The notes below the pieces were generated by a model, which saw nothing but the letters and a program-made list of their open reading frames with translations, was not told where the DNA came from and did no database searches. A program made the translations under genes and the position numbers. Positions 1 through 11,073 of a stretch of 11,073 nucleotides of DNA are shown here, piece by piece. How positions within the stretch are numbered: the stretch's first letter is position 1; every line of letters starts with the position of its first letter. The stretch comes from a bacterium (lineage in GTDB: Bacteria > UBP14 > UBA6098 > 4484-93), in assembly GCA_021158465.1 (NCBI GenBank), contig JAGGUN010000048.1, forward strand, positions 1 through 11,073, in the 5' to 3' direction.

Positions 1-623
1 TAAGTATTGCTGGTGAGACCGAGGACGAGTTTGCAAAGATTATGGATGCTCTTTCCCCTTATGAGGGTAGTTTCGATGCTTATGAGCTCAATGTTTCCTG
101 CCCCAATGTCTCGAGAGGTGGGATGGCATTTGGCACGAGCGCGGCACTGACCCGTTCTCTTGTAGCCAGGGTTCGCCTATGCACGGACAAGCCTTTGATC
201 GTTAAGCTTACCCCGAATGTTACGGACATTGTCGAGGTGGCACAGTCTGCCTGTGATGCAGGAGCCGATGCAATATCTCTTATTAACACTATCGTTGGTA
301 TGGTAATTGACATTGAGCATAGGAAGCCGCTTCTGGGGAACAAGTTTGGTGGGCTGTCAGGCCCTGCTGTAAAGCCTGTTGCCGTTGCCTGTGTATATAA
401 GGTAGCTTCAGCTGTTTCTGTCCCGGTAATAGGTGGGGGAGGTATCTCTTCCTGGCGGGATGTGGTAGAGTTTCTGATGGCTGGAGCAGATGCTGTTTTT
501 GTTGGCTCTGCTGTCTTTGCGAACCCCACGGTCATAAACGACCTAACAGACGGTCTCTCATCCTTCATTGATAGAGGGGAGTTCTCCTCTATTCGGGATA
601 TTATAGGAGTTGCCAGGGGTTAG
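1..623 (+). CDS. pyrD: Dihydroorotate dehydrogenase, class 1B catalytic subunit (5' part missing)
   Basis: Cytosolic flavoenzyme oxidising dihydroorotate to orotate, the fourth step of de novo pyrimidine synthesis. In class 1B it works with the FAD/2Fe-2S subunit PyrK and passes electrons to NAD+; pyrK is not in the window. The reading frame is open from base 3, and 206 residues are visible of the roughly 300 usual, so about 100 N-terminal residues lie outside. Family landmarks in order are the LNVSCPNV segment with the presumed catalytic cysteine, FGT, the FMN/substrate-contacting KLTPNVTD, INT, GGLSGPAVKPVA, and the C-terminal phosphate-binding IGGGGISSWRD and MAGADAVFVGSA segments. The ATG at base 42 is internal, because family similarity continues upstream of it (SIAGETEDEF). 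It ends in TAG, 3 nt before the lipoprotein gene. Class 1B rather than 1A rests on the SRGGMAFGT context and is likely but not certain. Confidence 0.95.
   Translation, partial: SIAGETEDEFAKIMDALSPYEGSFDAYELNVSCPNVSRGGMAFGTSAALTRSLVARVRLCTDKPLIVKLTPNVTDIVEVAQSACDAGADAISLINTIVGMVIDIEHRKPLLGNKFGGLSGPAVKPVAVACVYKVASAVSVPVIGGGGISSWRDVVEFLMAGADAVFVGSAVFANPTVINDLTDGLSSFIDRGEFSSIRDIIGVARG
615..619 (+). promoter_or_regulatory. Ribosome binding site for the RlpA-like gene
   Basis: AGGGG lies inside the last codons of pyrD, 7 nt before the ATG at 627. A second candidate, AGGAG, lies at 605-609. Both fall within pyrD, so the lipoprotein gene appears to be co-transcribed with pyrD and reads from its tail. 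Confidence 0.55.
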
Positions 624-626
624 CGT

Positions 627-1025
627 ATGAACAGGGTAGCATTTTTGTTTTTGCTTCTTATTTGTGGTTGTTCAACCTCTCCCAGATACACAAAGCCTGT
701 TATAATCTTTCCTACCGGGTATGTTCAAAAGGGGATAGCCTCGTATTATTCGGAAGAGTTTCACGGCAGGAAGACCTCCTCTGGTGAGATATTCGATATG
801 AACGGTCTAACCTGTGCCCATAGGATGCTGCCTCTTGGGACTATTATTCGGGTTGTCAACCTTGAGAACGGCAGGAGTATTGTTCTTCGTGTTAACGACA
901 GGGGTCCGTTCAAGCGTGGGAGGATATTGGATGTCTCTCGTGAGGGGGCTCGTCGTCTCGGTTTCCTTGAGAAGGGGACGGCACTTGTCTCTATTGAGGT
1001 TCTGAGGTATCCTGAGGGTTATTAG
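627..1025 (+). CDS. rlpA: RlpA-like double-psi beta-barrel lipoprotein (putative septal lytic transglycosylase)
   Basis: A 132-residue lipoprotein. Residues 1-15 form a type II signal peptide, with a hydrophobic stretch ending in ICGC, so Cys15 is the likely lipidation site. Ser16 at +2 favours outer-membrane sorting by the known Lol rule. Residues about 36-128 form the double-psi beta-barrel (GIASYYSEEFHGRKTSSGE, AHRMLPLGT, VNDRGPF, LDVSREGARRLGF). Glu54, His65 and Asp91 have the same spacing (11 and 26 residues) as the catalytic residues I recall for Pseudomonas RlpA, which cleaves glycan strands lacking stem peptides. Lytic activity is therefore plausible. It has no SPOR domain, which many septum-targeted RlpA proteins carry, so its localisation may differ. 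The start has AGGGG at 615-619, 7 nt upstream. It follows pyrD by 3 nt, and its last 35 nt overlap the convergent PASTA gene. Confidence 0.93.
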   Translation: MNRVAFLFLLLICGCSTSPRYTKPVIIFPTGYVQKGIASYYSEEFHGRKTSSGEIFDMNGLTCAHRMLPLGTIIRVVNLENGRSIVLRVNDRGPFKRGRILDVSREGARRLGFLEKGTALVSIEVLRYPEGY

Positions 1026-1746
1026 TGCTGATAGTCAGGCTTACTGAGCTTCCAGCGTATGTTCTTGTTCCTGGTTCGGGGCTTTGGCGGTATACGGTTT
1101 GTGGCTCAACGGCAACGGTGAAATGATACTTGATCCTTCCTATTTTAAGCCTGTTCTTCTTGGCAAGCTCTTTTGCCTCGTCTATCGATAGACCGAGAAA
1201 TGTTGGAGTGGTTACATATGCTCGGCTTCCACTGCTTACATATAGGGTTACTTTCCCACCGATCGGAATATTTTCCCCCCCAGGTGGCTCGGTTTTCACG
1301 ACATTTCCCTCAGGTATGTTTTTATCTTCTATGAATATTGTATCCCCGATTGTGAGCTTTTTCTCCTCGATAATGAATTTTGCCTGCCGGAGAGAGTAGC
1401 CTTTGAGTTCTGGCACGGTTATATTCTGGCTGCCGAGGCTCACTGTGAGTTTTACCTCTTTTTCTCTCTTTACCATTAGGTTCCCTCTCGGTACCTGGAA
1501 CATCACTGTTCCTTCAGGGAAATCAGAGCTGTATTCTTCTCTGTATCTTCTCACCCTAAGTTTTTTCTCTTCGAGAACCTTTTTTGCCTCCTCGAACTCC
1601 ATTCCAACCACCTTGGGGACGAGTATATCGGCATTGTGCCGAACGACAACCCTCATCACCACCCTATCGAACACAAGAAACCCGAGTGCAATTCCTAAGA
1701 TTCCGGTCGCAATGTAGATGAGAGGGTTGAAAAACCGCCTATTCAT
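991..1746 (-). CDS. Membrane-anchored protein with three PASTA domains, no kinase
   Basis: A 251-residue protein. Residues about 9-27 are one transmembrane segment (IYIATGILGIALGFLVF) after a short basic N-terminus (MNRR), predicting a cytoplasmic N-terminus and an extracytoplasmic remainder. Three PASTA repeats follow at about 41-105, 108-173 and 178-240, each with the pattern VP.(L/V).G.....A...L, then a (P)EG..(V/M).....P.G stretch, then a V.L.VS.G end. PASTA domains in PknB-type kinases and some penicillin-binding proteins bind muropeptides or peptidoglycan. Here no kinase or transpeptidase domain is present, so it may be a cell-wall sensor or scaffold; the function is inferred. The ATG overlaps the birA stop (ATGAATAG, 8 nt), with GGGAG at 1756-1760 as ribosome binding site. 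It is the last gene of the minus-strand unit and ends inside the 3' end of the convergent RlpA-like gene. Confidence 0.9.
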   Translation of the reverse strand: MNRRFFNPLIYIATGILGIALGFLVFDRVVMRVVVRHNADILVPKVVGMEFEEAKKVLEEKKLRVRRYREEYSSDFPEGTVMFQVPRGNLMVKREKEVKLTVSLGSQNITVPELKGYSLRQAKFIIEEKKLTIGDTIFIEDKNIPEGNVVKTEPPGGENIPIGGKVTLYVSSGSRAYVTTPTFLGLSIDEAKELAKKNRLKIGRIKYHFTVAVEPQTVYRQSPEPGTRTYAGSSVSLTISTNNPQDTSEPQ

Positions 1747-2509
1747 ACGAGATTTCTCCCGAGAATAGCTGCTTCTTCCCGTCTTCGTCGACGATGATAA
1801 GCGTTCCTGTCTCGCTTATATCGTGGAATAGAGAAACCGTTTTTTCTTTTCCTATCTTGGAATAGATAACATCATGCCATCTTGGGCAGAGCGAGAGCCA
1901 TCTATCTCTAAAGTATAGAAACCCCTTGTTCTTGTAAATGGTAAGGTTTTTGTCAATTCCCTGGATAAGGTTGAGCAGGGCATCGGTTAGATCAAGTTTC
2001 TTACCTGTCTCTATGAAGACCGAGGTTGCTTTTTCTCTTAGCTCCTCAGGGAGGGCAGTCTGTTCCGTGTTGATGTTCACTCCGATGCCACAGATAAGGT
2101 TATCGCCCACTAGCTCTGCCAGTACTCCGCCTATCTTTTTACCGTTGATAAGGATATCGTTGGGCCACTTGAGGCTTGGTTTAATCCCTGTAAGGTAGTG
2201 AATGGTATTTGCCACAGAGTAAGCTACTACAAGTGTTAGGGGAGTAATGTCTCTTTTGAACCGCTTGATGAGGAAGGAGAAATAGATCCCGCCTCTCGGG
2301 GATACCCATTCCCTTTTGAACCTACCGTATCCCTTTGTTTGGATGTTTGCTACTGCCACTGCTCCCGATGAAACTTCGCCTCTTGTTAGAGCGTCCTTCA
2401 GAAAACTGCTTGTGGATTCTACCACTTCGTGGATTATGATATTCCTCCCGATGAGTCGTGCCTTCTGTGACTTGAGTATCCTCCTTGTGTCGTAGGTATT
2501 GCTACTCAT
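1739..2509 (-). CDS. birA: Biotin-[acetyl-CoA-carboxylase] ligase, catalytic type without HTH domain
   Basis: Joins biotin to the acceptor lysine of biotin carboxyl carrier proteins through biotinoyl-AMP, in the cytosol. From the chosen start it has 256 residues: the catalytic domain at about 20-200 and a small SH3-like C-terminal domain at about 205-256. Visible motifs are ESTSSFLKD near 31-39, the biotinoyl-AMP loop KGYGRFKREW at 59-68, SPRGGIYFS, KWPNDILINGKKIGGVL with the catalytic Lys114, and GIGVNIN at 141-147. The N-terminal winged helix of bifunctional BirA repressors is absent, so it should not repress biotin genes. The adenylate loop departs from the usual GRGRxGR, with Tyr in place of the first Arg and Lys in place of the last Gly. 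The frame is open to an ATG at 2551, but the ATG at 2509 is preferred: it has GGAGGTGG 9 nt upstream and overlaps the nadC stop by 8 nt (ATGAGTAG). Confidence 0.94.
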   Translation of the reverse strand: MSSNTYDTRRILKSQKARLIGRNIIIHEVVESTSSFLKDALTRGEVSSGAVAVANIQTKGYGRFKREWVSPRGGIYFSFLIKRFKRDITPLTLVVAYSVANTIHYLTGIKPSLKWPNDILINGKKIGGVLAELVGDNLICGIGVNINTEQTALPEELREKATSVFIETGKKLDLTDALLNLIQGIDKNLTIYKNKGFLYFRDRWLSLCPRWHDVIYSKIGKEKTVSLFHDISETGTLIIVDEDGKKQLFSGEISYE

Positions 2510-3374
2510 ATACCCTCTCCACCTCCAGTGACATATCCAACCCGTTTGCACTGTGGGTTAATGCTCCAACTGATATATACTCGATACCCGTTCTGGCAAA
2601 TTCCTCTATATTCTCGAGCTTCACCCCTCCAGATAACTCGAACTCTACATCGACATCCATTTCTTCTCTCATTCTTATCGCCTCTCTAACCATATGAGGG
2701 GTGAAGTTATCGAGCATGATCCTGTCGAACCTACATGGAAGCACCTTTTTGAGCTCGTCAAGGGTTGACACCTCTATCTCAACCTTCGTGTTAATGGATC
2801 TCCTTTTACTCTTCAAGATCTTCAGAATGTTGTCTATTCCACCGGCTGTTTTTATGTGGTTATCCTTTATGAGCATCATATCGAATAGCCCCATTCTATG
2901 GTTTTCCGCTCCACCGTCTCTTGTTGCTTTCTTCTCCGATTCTCGCATACCAGGCGTGGTTTTCCTCGTATCCAGTATCTTTGTCTTTGTTCCTTTTACC
3001 TTTTCGATGAACTTAGATGTCAGGGTAGCTACCCCTGATAGATGGGAGAGTATATTCAGTATGGTTCTCTCACAGGCAAGGATAGCTCTTGCATCACCTG
3101 TTATTCGGCAGATGACTTCTTGTGGTTTGACCCTCTCAGCATTCTCTTTGAAAAAGGTTATATTGGGTTTTTGGTAATGTTTTTCTGGGTAGATTTCTAT
3201 GAGTCTTTCGAATGTTTTCTCTATGGTTTCAACTCCGGACAATACCCCCTCTTCCTTCGCTATGATAACTGCGTCTATTATCCTTTTGTCGATGAATGTA
3301 TCGCTTGTGATATCTCCTTTTTCTCTTAGGTCTTCTGCAAGGGCGGCTGTTATAAAGTCGAGATGTTTTACCAT
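2502..3374 (-). CDS. nadC: Nicotinate-nucleotide pyrophosphorylase (quinolinate phosphoribosyltransferase)
   Basis: Cytosolic enzyme converting quinolinate and PRPP to nicotinate mononucleotide with CO2 release, the entry from de novo quinolinate synthesis into NAD. At 290 residues it is full length for the family. Landmarks are EDLREKGDITS (14-24), the N-terminal swapped domain, ERTILNILSHLSGVAT (102-117), DTRKTTPGMR (135-144), the quinolinate-binding stretch around RDGGAENHRMGLFDMMLIKDNH (152-173), VEIEVSTLDE, IMLDNF (219-224), ELSGGV (246-251) and ISVGALTHS at the C-terminus. No nadA or nadB is in the window, so quinolinate must be made by genes elsewhere. The ATG overlaps the peptidase stop (ATGGTAA, 7 nt) and its own Shine-Dalgarno is weak, so translation probably depends on coupling. 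It is followed by birA with an 8-nt overlap. Confidence 0.97.
   Translation of the reverse strand: MVKHLDFITAALAEDLREKGDITSDTFIDKRIIDAVIIAKEEGVLSGVETIEKTFERLIEIYPEKHYQKPNITFFKENAERVKPQEVICRITGDARAILACERTILNILSHLSGVATLTSKFIEKVKGTKTKILDTRKTTPGMRESEKKATRDGGAENHRMGLFDMMLIKDNHIKTAGGIDNILKILKSKRRSINTKVEIEVSTLDELKKVLPCRFDRIMLDNFTPHMVREAIRMREEMDVDVEFELSGGVKLENIEEFARTGIEYISVGALTHSANGLDMSLEVERVYE
2519..2526 (-). promoter_or_regulatory. Ribosome binding site deciding the birA start
   Basis: On the minus strand, GGAGGTGG lies 9 nt before the ATG at 2509, inside the nadC tail. It is followed by a second purine-rich run, GGAGAGGG. This strong site supports the downstream ATG and argues against the in-frame ATG at 2551, which would add 14 residues unlike the family. 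Confidence 0.75.
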
Positions 3375-3832
3375 CTCATAAGTCCCAGTATCTTGACCCT
3401 TGTCTCCATCGCCTTATACGATACATCGAACCTGTCTGCGAGGATAGAGATACGATATTGTGGGTTGGTTTCGTACTGTTTCCAGAGTTTCTTGACAGTG
3501 ACGATCGGCATAAGGAGCTCCGATGCGAATGCATTTGCAGCTCTTTCCATCTTTCGATTCTTCCCGTGGAAGTATACACCTTGTGAGCGGTGTGGCATGA
3601 CGATATGTCCAAGTTCGTGTGCTATGGTGAACCGTTTCTGCCTGTCTGAGAGATGGGTCGAGACGACGATGAGTTTGTATTCCCGGGACTTGAAGGTTAT
3701 TCCGTCCATCCCGATAAAGTCATCCTCCTTAATCTCGACACCCAGCTTATCACAGAGCTTGTAAATGTCTATCGGAGGATTGTCAAGGTCGATGTATTTA
3801 TACAGGCTTCTGGCATAGTCGACTGGTCTCAA
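3368..3832 (-). CDS. ImmA/IrrE-family zinc metallopeptidase
   Basis: A 154-residue cytosolic protein of the ImmA/IrrE (peptidase M78-like) family. The zinc motif is in TIAHELGHIVMP, with His72, Glu73 and His76. ERAANAFASELLMP (97-110) supplies the likely third ligand Glu97 and the family's hallmark C-terminal half. The N-terminal helix with PPIDIYKLCDKLGVEI (19-34) and the C-terminal LADRFDVSYKAMETRVKILGLM are also typical. Known members cleave an XRE-type repressor (ImmA cutting ImmR, IrrE cutting DdrO), usually encoded next door. Here no helix-turn-helix gene adjoins it. Its immediate upstream neighbour is a 47-residue basic protein whose stop overlaps the start (TTGA). The start is TTG, supported by AGGGAG 8 nt upstream; no ATG or GTG exists in this frame between the upstream stop at 3905-3907 and the conserved N-terminus. 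The substrate is unknown. Confidence 0.9.
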   Translation of the reverse strand: MRPVDYARSLYKYIDLDNPPIDIYKLCDKLGVEIKEDDFIGMDGITFKSREYKLIVVSTHLSDRQKRFTIAHELGHIVMPHRSQGVYFHGKNRKMERAANAFASELLMPIVTVKKLWKQYETNPQYRISILADRFDVSYKAMETRVKILGLMRW

Positions 3833-3975: not shown

Positions 3976-6900
3976 TTATCTTGCCAGAATTATTGTTCCG
4001 TTGCAAACTACCTTATCCTGCACCTCGAGGACATAGATATATATCCCTGATGGGACCTTTTTGCCAGACATATCTTTTCCATCCCAGGAGCGCAGATTGA
4101 ACTGCCTGAAGTCGGATATAGGAGGCAGCGTTTTCTGATATATGAGAGTATTGCGGATGTCGAATATCGAGAGGGTTGCCTCCTCGCTGAACATAAACGG
4201 GTAATCGAAGACAGTGATGTCATTATAGCCGTCGGAGTTTGGGGTAAATGGGTTTGGATGCACATAGCAAGAGATATCAGGCTCGACCCAGAAGAACCAG
4301 TTGAACTCTCCTGTGTTTGGCTCGCAGTAGTCTGGACTGTCTTTAGCCTGTAAGGAGATAAACACTGTGTCTCCCTGGAGAAATTCACCGCCAAACGCTT
4401 CTGGCGAGAAGATGAGTTCACCACCGTTTCCGTTTGGAATGTACTCCAGTCCATCGGAGAGGCGGTATTCTGTTCCAGAGATGCCGAATATGATACCTTC
4501 TGGGTTGACGCCTGACAGATTGTCATCGAGGGTTATACGGATACTTGCTTCTCGATTTCTTATCATTGAACCGTTTTCCGGTGCTGTCAGGACTGCTGTT
4601 GGTGGTTCCGTATCAACCGCAAACTGCCAGGTGACGGGCGTTCTCATCGGGTTGCCGAGATTATCGTGCGCCGATGTAAGTGCGACATTTACCGTCTGGT
4701 TGTTTGTGAAGATAGGCTCTGCTGGTGTGAAGAAGAGAGTATCGTTTCTAAATTCAAGCTGCGTAGAATCGATTGTGTAAGCTCTCCCTTCGACCTCGAG
4801 TGTTATCGTCGCCGGGTTTACCCCCTCGGGGTCTGTGATGAGCATTATTATTCGCTGGTCGTCGCAGGCTGTTATTGTATTTGGTAGTGGCTCGACTATT
4901 GTTGCCACAGGTCCTGTCAGTATCCGGACCGATGAATCGGTGAAAGACGAGGTCATATCAGAACAGTTGACAAAATCTATATCGGCGTCCCTTGCTATCA
5001 CTCGATAGACGAAGTTTGAGCCTTCAGGCTGGGCAGGTATCGGGTTCTCCGTGCGAAAGCGAGTAGTTGTCAGAACTGACTCGGATACGAGCTTGCTGGT
5101 CTTTTCTGCTCTTGCTGTTGTCAGAGGTCTCATATTGACGATCCCTGAGAAATCCTCTGGTCCGACCGTTCCGTCGTTATCCCAGATGAGATATACAACA
5201 GAGTCCGGGCAGAACCCTCCTGTGAAGATGTCCGATGTGTCGGCTATATCGCATTCGATGTAGAACGCCGAGTCGTTGGACCAGAAGCCTGGCGAGAAAT
5301 TGGAGATTGCAGGTCCTATTGTGTCGTCATCGAGGATTGTGAAGCTAAATGAATTCGGCAACTGTATCGGGTTTGGCTCGCAGTAGTCTGGTTCGTTGTC
5401 GGTGGCAAACACCCGGACGGTGATTGTTGCGAACTCGGGGAAGTATATCCCTGATGTGAGTTCTGGCTCCGTTATCGGGTCGTATTCTATACCGAGGCTT
5501 GACTCGTCGACGAGCTCCGGATGGAATGCAAGCGTCTCTCCGTCCCATTCGAACACAGGTGACATGATGTCGAGTCGAACGGTTCCCGATGCCTTGTAGA
5601 CTCCGTCAATCTCGATGTATATGCTCGATGAATCGACTCCGAGGATGTTATCCGTAAGCGTCAACGATAGTGTCGGCTGCCAGCTATGGATATCCCCTGT
5701 TGGTGAGAAATCGTCTGCCACAGGTCCAGATAGGTCGAGGATAAATACCCATTCGACAGGTGCTCTCTCTAACGGATTGCCAAGCATATCATCTGCACGG
5801 ATGAGCGCGATATGGACCGTATCGTTGTCGCTCCAGTATCCCACAGGCGGCGTGAATACCAATGTGTCCCTGATAAATGTAAGCTCATCGTCGGCAACGC
5901 TGAATGTATCGGAGTTTATGACGAGCCGAATGCTCGTTCCGTTGACCCCATTGGAATCTGTGATGCTCATTATAATCCTCTGGTCATCGCAGGCGGATAT
6001 GGTTGAGTCGAGCGGCTCGATGATGACTGCTTCCGGTCCGCCTGTCGCGATGAAGAAACTCCAGCAGGTATCAAGTATATTGGGTGGACAGTAGTCAGGC
6101 GAATCCTGCCCGCTCACGCATACTTCTATCTCATCTCCGCCGTGGAAATGATACCCTGCTGCCTCCATATCGAGTGAGAAACCTCTGCCATCCCAGGCAA
6201 CATGCGGTGATGTTATATCGTAGACATCAGCCCCGTTCACCGTCAGAGTGACCGTTGTCTCGTCGAGCCCGGAGAGAACATCGTATATATCGAACGATAT
6301 TGTCGGATGCACATCCTCGATGGTTGTCCCCGGAGCAGGGAGCGGGTCTTCAAGCACAGGAGGCGACAGGTCGATGAAGAACAGCCAGCTTACTGGAGCG
6401 TCTATCGGATTGTGGAGCATATCCTCTGCATTAACGAGCGTCACAGTGACCTCCAAACCATCGGTGAAATATTCGCTCGGCAGTGGTGTCCAGATAAGCT
6501 CACAGGTTGACGCATCGTATGTCAGCTCGGTGTCGGAGATTGTGTATTCTACCCCGTTCACATCGAGTATTATCGATGTTGTGTCAACGCCGTTCCTGTC
6601 GGTTACAGTCAGGATGATGCGTTGGTCTTCGCAGGCTGAATATGTCGATTCAAGCGGCTCTATAATCTCAACAATCGGTCCTCCTCTCGATATGGCGAAC
6701 TCCCAGCAGCTGTCGAGCACATTCGGACCGCAGGTGTCGGGCATATCCGAAACCGTCAGGCAGACCTCGATCGTATCTCCACCTGACCATTCTATTCCGA
6801 GCGACTCCGGCACAAACTCGAGCGTCGTCCCGTCCCAGAAAAGCCCTGCCGACGAGGTGTCGTATGCTACTCCATCCACCGTTAGACTTATGGATGCTGG

Positions 6901-9900
6901 GTCAACACCGCTTGTTGCATCGCTTATATCCATCGAGATGGTCGGTGTTGTTATATCCACTTCACCGCCGGCGGCTGGTGTAACGGCACTAACAACAGGC
7001 GGTGAGTAGTCGAATGTTACCGAGAAAGCAACAGGTGCTGTAAGCGGGTTGCATAAAATATCATCTGCTCTATCAAGCAGGAATGAGACAGTTGAACCAT
7101 CGGCAAAGAACCCCACAGGTGGTGAGAAAAGCAGGGTATCGTCGTCGTAAGTCAGATATGTCGAATCAATTGTGTATTCCACGCCACCTGCAACAAAATG
7201 GATGGTCGCATCGTCAACACCGTTCGAGTCAGTCAACAAGATAACTATCTCCTGTGGGTCGCAGGCGGATATCACACCGTCCCGCGGTGATATGAGTGAG
7301 GCAACAGGTCCACCTGTCTCGATTGTGTAAATCCAGCAGCTGTCGAGTATATTCGGTGGACAGTAGTCGGGCATATCCCCTGCTGTGAGGCAGACGAAGA
7401 GCGTGTCCCCGCCACAGAATGAGAGTCCTGCCTCGTCGGACGAGAAGACAAGATGCCCATCCGACCAGCTTACGCCTGCGGAGGTCAAACTGTATTCTGC
7501 TCCGTTCACAGTCAGTATAACGCTTGCCTCATCGAGACCGGATAACCTATCGGACAGGTCGAATTCGAATGTTGGTGTTCTCGTTGCAAAGATGTAACCC
7601 TCAGGCGGTGTTAGTCCTGATATCTCGGGTGGCGTCAAATCGACCGTGAAGCTCCAAACGACAAGGGAATCGAGGCAGTTTGACAGCATATCGCAAACAG
7701 ATGTTAGCCTGACCGTTACTATTTCTCCGTCGGTGAAGTATTCTGTCGGAAGCGGCGTCCAGATAAGTTCACCTGTTGATAGGTCATAACTCAATTCCGT
7801 ATCGTCAGTGGTGAATTCTGTCCCGTTCACCTCAAGCGTTATGCTTGACGGGTTGACGCCATCGATGTCCGTTATATTCATTATTATCGATTGGTCTTCG
7901 CAGGCGGTATATGTCTCCGGTAGCGGCTCGATTATGACAGGCGCCGGCGGTCCCACAGGGATTGTGAATGTCCAGCAGGTATCGAGAAGATTCACATCAC
8001 ACATATCGGGTGTATCCTCTGCCCTCACGCAGACTCGAACGACCGTTCCACCGGAGAAGCTCATCCCTGCCCCGTCGGTATCGAATGTAACGGTCGAATC
8101 CGTTATGGTAAGATACCCCGTGCTTCCAACGAGTATCCAGCTTGTATCTGTTGGAATAGTATCGACAGCAACAAGTATGTTCGAGAGGTTCACACCCGCC
8201 ATATTATCGGTTATATCGAATGTGATAGTTGGTCGTGAGTCGGCAACCTCCGTACCTGCTGGTGGGAATTCGCTGTATATGTGTGGTGCCTCCCTGTCAA
8301 CATAGAACACAAACTCCATATCGGCACTCTTCGGATTGCCGAGTGAATCCTCTGCCGCCAGGAGATTGATTCTTACCGTGTCGTTGTTATCAAACTCCTC
8401 GAACGATATATGTGTGAGCAGGGTATCTCCTGCCCAGTCTATCCCCACAGGAATAACCTCGAAAGGTTCTCCGTTGATTGTCCCGGCAAACTGGGCAAAC
8501 CTAACACCATGGGAAGCAGGTATATGGTCGAATACCGGTATGGTGAAGAATGTGTCATAGCAAGAGACGATTATCCCATCGAACGGAGCGGTAGCACTTG
8601 GACCGATTATATCGATATAGAACTCCCATGAGGTTTCGCCTGTGTTCGGGTCGCATAGCGTAGGGGAGTCTCCGGCGGATACGCTTACGAGGACGGTCTC
8701 GGCATGCGAGAAGACTACGCCGGCAGATTCAGGGTAGAAGTAGAGCATCCCCTCGGATATATCCGATAATGTATCGGGCAACCAAACGACGCCTGGGTCT
8801 CCTATGTGGTATGTAACCCCGTTTATGGTCAGCAGGACGAGCGATATATCAATTCCCGATACGGAGTCGGCAATGTGAACAGAGATAACAGGGACAGAAT
8901 CCGCCACCCAGGAGAGATTGTAAGGCGTTTCCTCACTGAATACTGGCGGTGATATATCGACGATAAAGCTCCAATCGAGCGGCGTAGTCAGTTCATTTCC
9001 GAGCGAATCATCGGCAGATATAAGCTCGATATGGACGGTTGAGCCGTCTGGCCAGGGGATAGAATCTGCTGGAATGAAATACAGCGTGTCGTTGCGGAAG
9101 ATAACCTGCGGGTCAGACACAGAATAGGGCGTTCCGTTTATCCTAAGCTCGATTGTTGCATCGTTCACACCCTGCTCATCGGTGATTGTCATAGCGATTA
9201 TCTGTGGTCTGCAGCTGGAGATGTCCCCATCCATTGGTGTTACGATATTGGCATACGGTCCAAGCAGACTGATGACAAAGCTCCAGCACTCGTGCGAATG
9301 GTTCGGGTCACAGTAGTCGGGTCTGTCCTCCGCATCGATGCAGACTGTCAGTGTCTCACCATCGGCAAAGACAAATCCTGCAAGGGCGGTGTTTATCTCA
9401 AAATGCTCACCATCGAATGATACCCCGAGGCTCTCCACACCGTAAGAGATCGTATCGTTGATTGTAACGACAATCGATGTCGGCTCCACACCGGACATAT
9501 CATCGAATATATCGAATGAGATGACAGGGGATGCCGTTGCCACAAGCGAATCTGATGCTGGCAGCATATTCTCAAAATACGGTGGTGAGAAGTCGGTGTA
9601 GAATGACCATTCGAGCGGTGCATCTGTCAGCGGGTTGCCGTTTATATCGAACGCAGAATCAAGCGAAACATAAACCGTTTCATTATCCGCCCAGAACCCT
9701 GCTCCAGGTGAGAAAACAAGTATAGAATCCCTCGGATTGTAGTTCAGAGCCGGGTCGGATGTGCTGTATCCTGCCTCGTTTATCACGAGATATATCCTGT
9801 CGCTATTTACCCCCTCCTCGTCGAAGAGGTGGATAATAATCGATTGGTCTTCGCAGGCGGTGTATGTTTCTGGCAAGGGTTGAACAATCTCCGCGACAGG

Positions 9901-11073
9901 TCCTGTTAAATCGACATAGAATATGAAGCAGGTTGTGTCGATCACATTCGGTGCGCAGTAATCCGGAGTATCGTAGATATTGTAGAAGCAAACGGTAACT
10001 GTTTCATTGTCGGCGAACGCCAGCCTTGCCTCTTCCGGGTGAAACTCGAACTCTCCTGTAAGCGTATCGTAGTGGACGCCTGGGGCGTCGTATCCGTAAT
10101 AGACCCCATTTATCTCGATCCCGATAGATGTCGGATCAACTCCGCTCATGGAATCGTATATCGTGGCGGAGATGACTGGTGTAGGCGTGGTGACCGTCGT
10201 ATCCTCTGGGAAAAAGTCGGATAGCACTGGAGGCGAGAAGTCGGTATAGAATGTCCAGCTTATAGGTGCCCCTTGGAGCGGATTACCGTAAATGTCGTCG
10301 AAGGTCAGGAGTGAGACATTCACGGTTTCCGCATCTGCCCAGAAGCTGTCGGGCGGTGTAAAGTAGAGCGTATCGTTCGAGTATGTCAGGTACGGGCTTC
10401 TCGAATTGTACACCACCCCATTAATCTCAAGCTGAACGGTGGAGAAATCCGCCCCGCTCGAGTCGAATACCGTCATAATAATCCTCTGGTCCTCGCATGC
10501 GGTGTATGTTTCAGGCAACGGCTCGATAATCTCCGCCTCCGGTCCTGTAATGTCGATTATCACAACGAACCACCAGCAATATGGCTCCTCGAGATGGTTC
10601 GGCTCGCAGTAGTCGTAGGTTGGGGAATCTGCAACATCTAACAGACATATGTATACAGAATCCAGGTTCTCGAATACCATTCCATCAAAATGTAGTGTCG
10701 TGCCATCCCAGGATATCGTGTACATTGATGGGTCCAAGGTCACACCATTGACCTGAACACTCACAACAATAGTCGATGGGTCGATCCCCGAGATGTCATC
10801 GGCGATGTTCACCGATATTGTCGGGTCGGCCACATAAACAAAGTGGGAGTCTGGCTGCTCGTTGTATGCCCATGGTGGTCCTGTATCCACCTGAAAGTTG
10901 CAATGAACTGTATCACCGTAACATCCGATATTGTCGGCGACAGGACCGGTTGAGAACTCGACCCATATACCGCTTGGCCAGGGTGTGCTTGGATGCCAGG
11001 TGAGATACGGCGGTGTCCAGTCAAGCTCGGGGTCGCTGATAAAGTAATCGACTCCGTTGACCGTTAGCCTGAA
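3976..11073 (-). CDS. Giant secreted repeat protein with alternating Ig-like modules and a sorting-type C-terminal domain (N-terminus outside window)
   Basis: The frame is open without a stop from the right window edge to TAA at 3976-3978, giving at least 2365 residues. The GTG at 10890 is not a true start, because repeat-like sequence (FRLTVNGVDYFISDPELDW) continues upstream of it. The protein is an alternating array of about 105-residue, beta-rich, Asp/Thr/Ser-rich modules. Type A has IIEPL..TYTACEDQ, D..GV....I.L.VNG, F.....GNPL and an SPP end. Type B has P.IS..I.D..SGVDP.SI.L.VNG, GG(D/E)T..VC, DxPDYCxPN, CWxF and a GP end. There are ten B modules, nine complete A modules and one A cut by the edge. 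A different module (4915-5316) and a C-terminal domain (3979-4278) complete it. The cysteine pattern and low Lys content fit an extracellular, disulfide-stabilised surface or released protein, perhaps an adhesin. No enzymatic motif is visible. The signal peptide must lie off the window. Confidence 0.92.
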   Translation of the reverse strand, partial: FRLTVNGVDYFISDPELDWTPPYLTWHPSTPWPSGIWVEFSTGPVADNIGCYGDTVHCNFQVDTGPPWAYNEQPDSHFVYVADPTISVNIADDISGIDPSTIVVSVQVNGVTLDPSMYTISWDGTTLHFDGMVFENLDSVYICLLDVADSPTYDYCEPNHLEEPYCWWFVVIIDITGPEAEIIEPLPETYTACEDQRIIMTVFDSSGADFSTVQLEINGVVYNSRSPYLTYSNDTLYFTPPDSFWADAETVNVSLLTFDDIYGNPLQGAPISWTFYTDFSPPVLSDFFPEDTTVTTPTPVISATIYDSMSGVDPTSIGIEINGVYYGYDAPGVHYDTLTGEFEFHPEEARLAFADNETVTVCFYNIYDTPDYCAPNVIDTTCFIFYVDLTGPVAEIVQPLPETYTACEDQSIIIHLFDEEGVNSDRIYLVINEAGYSTSDPALNYNPRDSILVFSPGAGFWADNETVYVSLDSAFDINGNPLTDAPLEWSFYTDFSPPYFENMLPASDSLVATASPVISFDIFDDMSGVEPTSIVVTINDTISYGVESLGVSFDGEHFEINTALAGFVFADGETLTVCIDAEDRPDYCDPNHSHECWSFVISLLGPYANIVTPMDGDISSCRPQIIAMTITDEQGVNDATIELRINGTPYSVSDPQVIFRNDTLYFIPADSIPWPDGSTVHIELISADDSLGNELTTPLDWSFIVDISPPVFSEETPYNLSWVADSVPVISVHIADSVSGIDISLVLLTINGVTYHIGDPGVVWLPDTLSDISEGMLYFYPESAGVVFSHAETVLVSVSAGDSPTLCDPNTGETSWEFYIDIIGPSATAPFDGIIVSCYDTFFTIPVFDHIPASHGVRFAQFAGTINGEPFEVIPVGIDWAGDTLLTHISFEEFDNNDTVRINLLAAEDSLGNPKSADMEFVFYVDREAPHIYSEFPPAGTEVADSRPTITFDITDNMAGVNLSNILVAVDTIPTDTSWILVGSTGYLTITDSTVTFDTDGAGMSFSGGTVVRVCVRAEDTPDMCDVNLLDTCWTFTIPVGPPAPVIIEPLPETYTACEDQSIIMNITDIDGVNPSSITLEVNGTEFTTDDTELSYDLSTGELIWTPLPTEYFTDGEIVTVRLTSVCDMLSNCLDSLVVWSFTVDLTPPEISGLTPPEGYIFATRTPTFEFDLSDRLSGLDEASVILTVNGAEYSLTSAGVSWSDGHLVFSSDEAGLSFCGGDTLFVCLTAGDMPDYCPPNILDSCWIYTIETGGPVASLISPRDGVISACDPQEIVILLTDSNGVDDATIHFVAGGVEYTIDSTYLTYDDDTLLFSPPVGFFADGSTVSFLLDRADDILCNPLTAPVAFSVTFDYSPPVVSAVTPAAGGEVDITTPTISMDISDATSGVDPASISLTVDGVAYDTSSAGLFWDGTTLEFVPESLGIEWSGGDTIEVCLTVSDMPDTCGPNVLDSCWEFAISRGGPIVEIIEPLESTYSACEDQRIILTVTDRNGVDTTSIILDVNGVEYTISDTELTYDASTCELIWTPLPSEYFTDGLEVTVTLVNAEDMLHNPIDAPVSWLFFIDLSPPVLEDPLPAPGTTIEDVHPTISFDIYDVLSGLDETTVTLTVNGADVYDITSPHVAWDGRGFSLDMEAAGYHFHGGDEIEVCVSGQDSPDYCPPNILDTCWSFFIATGGPEAVIIEPLDSTISACDDQRIIMSITDSNGVNGTSIRLVINSDTFSVADDELTFIRDTLVFTPPVGYWSDNDTVHIALIRADDMLGNPLERAPVEWVFILDLSGPVADDFSPTGDIHSWQPTLSLTLTDNILGVDSSSIYIEIDGVYKASGTVRLDIMSPVFEWDGETLAFHPELVDESSLGIEYDPITEPELTSGIYFPEFATITVRVFATDNEPDYCEPNPIQLPNSFSFTILDDDTIGPAISNFSPGFWSNDSAFYIECDIADTSDIFTGGFCPDSVVYLIWDNDGTVGPEDFSGIVNMRPLTTARAEKTSKLVSESVLTTTRFRTENPIPAQPEGSNFVYRVIARDADIDFVNCSDMTSSFTDSSVRILTGPVATIVEPLPNTITACDDQRIIMLITDPEGVNPATITLEVEGRAYTIDSTQLEFRNDTLFFTPAEPIFTNNQTVNVALTSAHDNLGNPMRTPVTWQFAVDTEPPTAVLTAPENGSMIRNREASIRITLDDNLSGVNPEGIIFGISGTEYRLSDGLEYIPNGNGGELIFSPEAFGGEFLQGDTVFISLQAKDSPDYCEPNTGEFNWFFWVEPDISCYVHPNPFTPNSDGYNDITVFDYPFMFSEEATLSIFDIRNTLIYQKTLPPISDFRQFNLRSWDGKDMSGKKVPSGIYIYVLEVQDKVVCNGTIILAR
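3979..4278 (-). other. C-terminal FlgD/T9SS/CHU_C-like domain of the giant protein
   Basis: The last 100 residues start at PDISCYVHPNPFTPNSDGYND and continue with EEATLSIFDIRNTLIYQK, WDGKDMSGKKVPSGIYIY and a CNGTIILAR end. The order PNPF(T/S)PN.DG.ND, L.I.D......, WDG.D..G..V.SGIY.Y, then a short hydrophobic end, is that of C-terminal domains found on exported proteins in the FCB group and related candidate phyla. Those related to T9SS sorting signals direct outer-membrane export and attachment. Whether this organism has a type IX system cannot be seen here. The domain starts with a cysteine (ISCYV), 19 residues after the loop cysteine of B10. Confidence 0.75.
4279..11073 (-). repeat. Coding tandem array of alternating A and B modules, period about 630-660 bp
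   Basis: Boundaries set at the GP (B to A) and SPP-like (A to B) junctions, from the protein N-terminal side: A0 10873-11073 (partial), B1 10546-10872, A1 10228-10545, B2 9904-10227, A2 9580-9903, B3 9262-9579, A3 8944-9261, B4 8605-8943, A4 8284-8604, B5 7954-8283, A5 7627-7953, B6 7312-7626, A6 6997-7311, B7 6682-6996, A7 6358-6681, B8 6040-6357, A8 5722-6039, B9 5317-5721, non-repeat module 4915-5316, A9 4600-4914, B10 4279-4599. Most modules are 315-330 bp. B9 is enlarged to 405 bp, and A4 is the most divergent A, having lost EDQ. A and B share a common core (D..GV...I.L.VNG), so they probably descend from one ancestral module. DNA copies have mostly diverged, but short exact matches remain, for example a 23-bp identity between A2 (9839-9861) and A5 (7886-7908). 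Confidence 0.88.
4915..5316 (-). other. Non-repeat module inserted between B9 and A9 of the giant protein
   Basis: This 134-residue segment breaks the A/B alternation. It begins GPAISNFSPGFWSNDSAFY, contains VVYLIWDNDGTVGPEDFSG in its middle and EGSNFVYRVIARDADIDF towards the end, and closes with SSVRILTGPV, where the A9 module starts. It lacks the DPxSIxLxVNG core of A and B. The WDNDG and YRV.A.DAD elements suggest another beta-sandwich, fibronectin- or Ig-like, domain; that fold call is an inference. It holds three cysteines (in YIEC, GGFC and FVNC). Confidence 0.7.

Follow-up and report, generated by a model that had tools for sequence, protein, structure and literature searches.

The locus and its modules

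One long reading frame on the reverse strand (3976-11073) occupies most of the window, by which we mean the whole 11,073-nucleotide stretch of DNA that we analysed. This frame encodes 2365 amino acids and reaches the contig end, so the N-terminus of the protein is missing. The neighboring genes (3-3832) are all ordinary; by their Pfam matches, they are a partial dihydroorotate dehydrogenase, a DPBB/RlpA-like protein, a PASTA protein, a biotin ligase, a quinolinate phosphoribosyltransferase, and an IrrE-type peptidase.

The protein is an array of two kinds of modules, A and B, with an inserted module (X) before the last A-B couplet and a sorting domain at the C-terminus. In the list below, F and G are strands, the loop cysteine is the one between strands F and G of a B module, and a proposed clamp is a predicted disulfide between the cysteine of an A module and the loop cysteine of the next B module.

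3979..11073, (-): whole open reading frame; partial A0, eight B-A repeats, B9, X, A9, B10, C-terminal sorting domain
10885..11073, (-): A0, partial A module; C51/C58 near the A0 F-G region
10549..10884, (-): B1 module; F-G pair C143/C166, loop C156
9907..10548, (-): couplet A1-B2; proposed clamp C193-C373, F-G pair C362/C382
10495-10497 and 9955-9957, (-): codons of C193 and C373
9265..9906, (-): couplet A2-B3; proposed clamp C407-C588, F-G pair C578/C596
8608..9264, (-): couplet A3-B4; proposed clamp C621-C807, B4 without F and G cysteines
7954..8607, (-): couplet A4-B5; proposed clamp C838-C1025, F-G pair C1015/C1033
7315..7953, (-): couplet A5-B6; proposed clamp C1058-C1238, F-G pair C1228/C1246, extra C1127, C1133, C1220
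6685..7314, (-): couplet A6-B7; proposed clamp C1271-C1448, F-G pair C1438/C1456, extra C1341
6043..6684, (-): couplet A7-B8; proposed clamp C1481-C1662, F-G pair C1652/C1670, extra C1524; within the AlphaFold model
5320..6042, (-): couplet A8-B9; proposed clamp C1695-C1898, B9 without F and G cysteines
4918..5319, (-): X, inserted module preceding the last couplet; C1941, C1955, C2037
4279..4917, (-): couplet A9-B10; proposed clamp C2070-C2250, B10 without F and G cysteines
3979..4278, (-): C-terminal domain, CHU_C / T9SS type B-like sorting signal; putative pair of its own, C2269/C2357

The A and B modules are both Ig-like, because A9 matches Big_5, the A and B models match each other (aligning over their full length), and the predicted structure is all-beta and resembles Ig tandems. 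Against Big_5 (PF13205), the whole protein scores 42.4 bits vs. a curated cut-off of 23.6, and A9 (residues 2083-2151) is the single stretch that passes alone. The structure is an AlphaFold model of B7-A7-B8-A8 (5731-7005; model m04db14dd0edc; pLDDT 90.3), with strands from DSSP; the BABA alignment had 8 non-overlapping rows. Its best structural match is titin (3b43 by VIA-align; Z 14.7, rmsd 9.5 over 358).

An earlier note on this DNA had reported a cysteine in the loop of all ten B modules and at one position in all nine A modules. We find the same, at residues 156, 373, 588, 807, 1025, 1238, 1448, 1662, 1898, and 2250 for B and at 193, 407, 621, 838, 1058, 1271, 1481, 1695, and 2070 for A. 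Its spacings from each loop cysteine to the next A cysteine are correct to the residue (37, 34, 33, 31, 33, 33, 33, and 33), as are the 33 residues from the FVNC cysteine of X to the A9 cysteine and the 19 residues from the B10 loop cysteine to the SCY cysteine of the C-terminal domain. It missed the cysteines on strands F and G of most B modules and the second cysteine of the C-terminal domain (C2357). The A'-B turn cysteine of A0, which is the expected partner of C156 in B1, falls past the contig end. Five more cysteines in A5, B6, A6, and A7 (C1127, C1133, C1220, C1341, and C1524) lie outside all of the proposed pairs; C1127 and C1133 of A5 may form a local pair.

Related proteins

These modules were abundant in all 17 of the genomes that we examined from one small phylum. 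In a search of 44 other genomes, matches came from just two, with ten weak ones in the better of them. A contig scan with a single couplet as the query found three loci. From about 1 Mb around the matches, we typed modules in 135 proteins (749 A and 750 B); outside of the organism's own genome (G000) and two others (G004 and G008), the sample consists of the best-scoring loci. The loop cysteine is present in over 95% of the B modules of these related proteins and the A cysteine in about 96% of the A modules, and this conservation is far beyond chance. There are 661 steps from A to B vs. 534 from B to A, and the arrays mostly have A first and B last.

The loop cysteine is coupled to the preceding A module

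A B module has its loop cysteine when the A module just before it has its cysteine and lacks it when that A module does. In the raw table, both were present in 614 cases, the A cysteine only in 3, the loop cysteine only in 0, and neither in 16. We checked the three A-only cases by eye. In two of them, L156 B#7 and L166 B#1, the loop is shortened but does contain a cysteine (APDCPN and ADCPN), and these were re-called. The third, L090 B#1, matches in part, at 9 bits, and was dropped. The corrected table has 616 with both, 16 with neither, and 0 of 632 discordant. When we permuted the A states within each protein 2000 times, the number of discordant cases averaged 12 and was never below 2. In L080 and L070, an A module lacks its cysteine, and these apparent exceptions to the pairing are explained because the loop of the following B module lacks one as well. 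The 16 co-losses, which are few and not all phylogenetically independent, do not reflect one event, because they are spread over about six protein groups (by rough BLAST), three genomes (G000, G004, and G008), and three families. Two sets of full-length homologues (L075, L178, and L154; L070 and L156) were each counted once.

The earlier note had placed the disulfide on the other side of the B module: the loop cysteine would bond the A cysteine that comes 31-37 residues later, in the next module, to form rigid B-A couplets. The spacing is indeed constant near 33, both in the window and in the homologues, but this merely reflects the constant length of the modules. For the following A module, the raw table is 521/5/5/3, and nine cases are discordant (5 and 4 one-sided), so the members of this pair are lost independently, which is an outcome that the earlier note had itself named as refuting its pairing. 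Nine is no fewer than in the shuffles (mean 7.8, P = 0.83), and the following-A cysteine has no association with the loop cysteine beyond chance. Pairing from B to the next A would also leave arrays with a partnerless A at the start and a partnerless B at the end, and many arrays that are interrupted by X keep both cysteines with nothing in place as a partner.

The predicted structure points the same way. In the model, strands F and G span residues 78-87 and 96-105; the B-loop cysteine (Cys92) is in the loop that connects them, and the A cysteine (Cys125) is in the A'-B turn. Strand G of an Ig-like sandwich finishes at the C-terminal pole. This places the FG loop at the opposite, N-terminal pole, and the A'-B turn lies, like the end of strand G, at the C-terminal one. 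Judged by this topology rather than by measured distances, the A cysteine would sit at the C-terminal pole of A and the loop cysteine at the N-terminal pole of B, and a B-to-A pair would need to bridge about two modules. The Ig-Ig interface of titin is formed by the FG loop and the A'-B turn (PMC5043576); by this comparison and in the model, both elements are at the module ends that are far from the B-A junction. We consider a B-to-A bond to be very improbable.

Since coupling and topology agree, the likely clamp runs from A(n) to B(n+1), with the partners about 180 residues apart. Facing-loop cysteines of adjacent Ig-like modules are present or absent together, and the bond itself is predicted. 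An inter-module disulfide at alternate junctions, as the earlier note had suggested, is thus supported, but at the A-to-B junction rather than at the B-to-A junction. Its statement that A-to-B junctions lack a conserved cysteine was wrong in effect, as the same two cysteines flank that junction. The rigid unit would then be A-B, and the B-A joints would be unclamped.

A second pair on strands F and G

Besides the loop cysteine, B modules can have a cysteine in strand F (in VTVC) and another in strand G (in DTCW). In the window, these two are found together in 7 of 10 B modules (B1, B2, B3, B5, B6, B7, and B8) and are both missing from B4, B9, and B10. Among B modules of the homologues, 571 have both, 146 have neither, and 14 are mixed; those of the mixed cases that we inspected by eye were alignment slips. 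The corresponding cysteines in the model (Cys82 and Cys100) are nearly opposite each other on the two strands. We take these two cysteines of B to be an in-module pair across the hairpin. Some A modules have an F-G pair as well (32 both, 330 neither, and 1 mixed, using strict columns).

With four cysteines per couplet that are usually present together, they might instead be joined as F to the loop (within the module) and G to the A cysteine of the neighbor. But the F-G pair and the A-B pair can each be lost without the other: F and G are lost with the loop and A cysteines kept in 24 couplets, and the loop cysteine is also lost where F and G are kept. We give this exchange of partners almost no credence, and we retain F-G pairs together with A(n)-B(n+1) clamps.

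The terminal B module, adjacent to the sorting domain (B10, at 4279-4611 in the window, and its counterparts in L061, L063, L064, L081, and others), forms a class of its own: it keeps the loop cysteine but is almost always without those on strands F and G.

The inserted module and the C-terminal domain

X recurs ahead of the last A-B couplet in many homologues (for example L101, L087, L094, and L073). Its FVNC cysteine is variable, while the next A module nearly always has its cysteine, and so does the next B module wherever it is readable. The earlier note had paired the FVNC cysteine with A9, but of 41 X-interrupted arrays that have the A cysteine, 24 have no cysteine in that region of X, so we rejected this bond. 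X also has a conserved acidic stretch (D-x-D-x-DF, such as DNDFDFLNPLDR in L094), found in the window (4918-5319) and in the four homologues named above, whose sequence possibly resembles a Ca2+ site. An AlphaFold prediction for B9-X-A9-B10 with the C-terminal domain (from three sequences) had a pLDDT of 47 and a pTM of 0.24 and was uninformative about X or about the joint between B10 and the C-terminal domain.

The SCY cysteine of the sorting domain (C2269) was also thought to have its partner in the loop of B10. Instead, it co-occurs with a second cysteine near the C-terminus (C2357, in KVVCNGT): 66 proteins have both, 5 have neither, and 3 are mixed, one of which is a tail without the end of the domain. 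This co-occurrence extends to proteins with no B module typed alongside, and three terminal B modules without a loop cysteine are followed by a domain that keeps its SCY cysteine. Judging from these sequences, C2269 and C2357 are a predicted pair inside the sorting domain, which displaces the proposed bond to B10.

Export and the state of the cysteines

The C-terminal domain passes the Pfam cut-off for CHU_C sorting domains (PF13585; 34.9 bits vs. 27) and is below the NCBIfam cut-off for type B sorting domains (TIGR04131; 31.6 bits vs. 35). The genome has 61 FlgD_ig-like matches and a gene for the SprA translocon (SprA_N, PF14349, E = 3.2e-38, in a frame of 1943 amino acids). Because of the CHU_C, FlgD_ig-like, and SprA matches, export by type IX secretion (T9SS) is plausible.

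We found no match to DsbA, DsbB, VKOR, or Thioredoxin_4 in the organism's own genome, which is 97.6% complete. Nevertheless, many strictly paired cysteines occur in proteins of this genome that have export-type C-termini. It is a puzzle that many dozens of disulfides are predicted in a genome that has no recognised enzyme to form them. The lack of matches to DsbA, DsbB, and VKOR would fit cysteine pairs that bind a metal or remain as reduced thiols. However, three further two-cysteine pairs (F-G in B, F-G in A, and the two cysteines of the sorting domain) are nearly all-or-none, and the paired cysteines are on a protein with an export signal. We think that metal binding or free thiols are improbable and that the pairs would be disulfides.

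Comparison to known systems

Like this protein, the I-band of titin has tandem Ig beads (3b43; I9-I11, PMC5043576). Its junctions are described as having hydrophobic and polar contacts, with no inter-domain disulfide (PMC5043576), and we found no sequence relation to this protein. In Siglecs, a disulfide joins the adjacent V-set and C2 domains (such as Cys46-Cys172 in Siglec-6, based on AlphaFold; PMC10122656) and fixes their interface, as we predict here. Siglecs are eukaryotic and have this bond at a single junction, whereas we propose it for alternate junctions along a long stalk.

Among bacterial proteins, GhpA of Aureispira forms a giant filament of tandem beta-sandwich domains (9flu, 9flx, 9g8b, 9fls, and 9flv; Z 10-12), but unrelated Ig tandems reach structural scores that are at least as good, and its chains in the PDB had no match to our B-A profile up to E = 5. 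The adhesin extenders (MpAFP region II, 4p99; SiiE, 2yn5) are tandem Ig-like stalks that match by fold. They are named for bound Ca2+, whereas for this protein we propose a covalent clamp at alternate junctions. The general models for Big_5 (PF13205) and CHU_C (PF13585) miss the alternation of A and B with paired cysteines. Our literature search, which had partial coverage, gave no example of inter-domain disulfides at alternate junctions in a bacterial Ig tandem.

Proposed role

The N-terminal regions of the related proteins differ (compare L061, on contig C45 of the organism's own genome, with L080 on C41 and L073 on C33): VWA-like domains, LVIVD repeats, and IgGFc-binding-like domains are found on A-B stalks of varied length. 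Because relatives vary their N-terminal regions on different stalk lengths, we read the arrays as surface stalks with locked A-B joints and free B-A joints.

We think it quite probable that this protein is a secreted stalk of A-B couplets with A(n)-B(n+1) disulfide clamps, F-G staples, and a T9SS sorting domain. The stalk, on the outer surface, would be made of repeated couplets of Ig-like (Big_5-type) modules. The cysteine in the A'-B turn of A(n) would bond to the cysteine in the FG loop of B(n+1) and lock the A-B junction; the B-to-A joints would be unclamped and more flexible. Most B modules would have a further disulfide that staples the hairpin of strands F and G on which the loop is displayed, and another disulfide would lie within the sorting domain.

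A broader possibility, which we consider conceivable but on balance doubtful, is that very long T9SS-exported stalks are found across the phylum, are mechanically tuned by disulfide clamps at every second Ig-Ig junction, and are oxidised by a system other than DsbA, DsbB, or VKOR. The A-B clamp itself, if it forms, would give bacteria a covalent means to set the stiffness of an Ig-like surface stalk, by alternating locked and free joints, and it could be recognised from sequence by a simple rule among thousands of modules that lack annotation.
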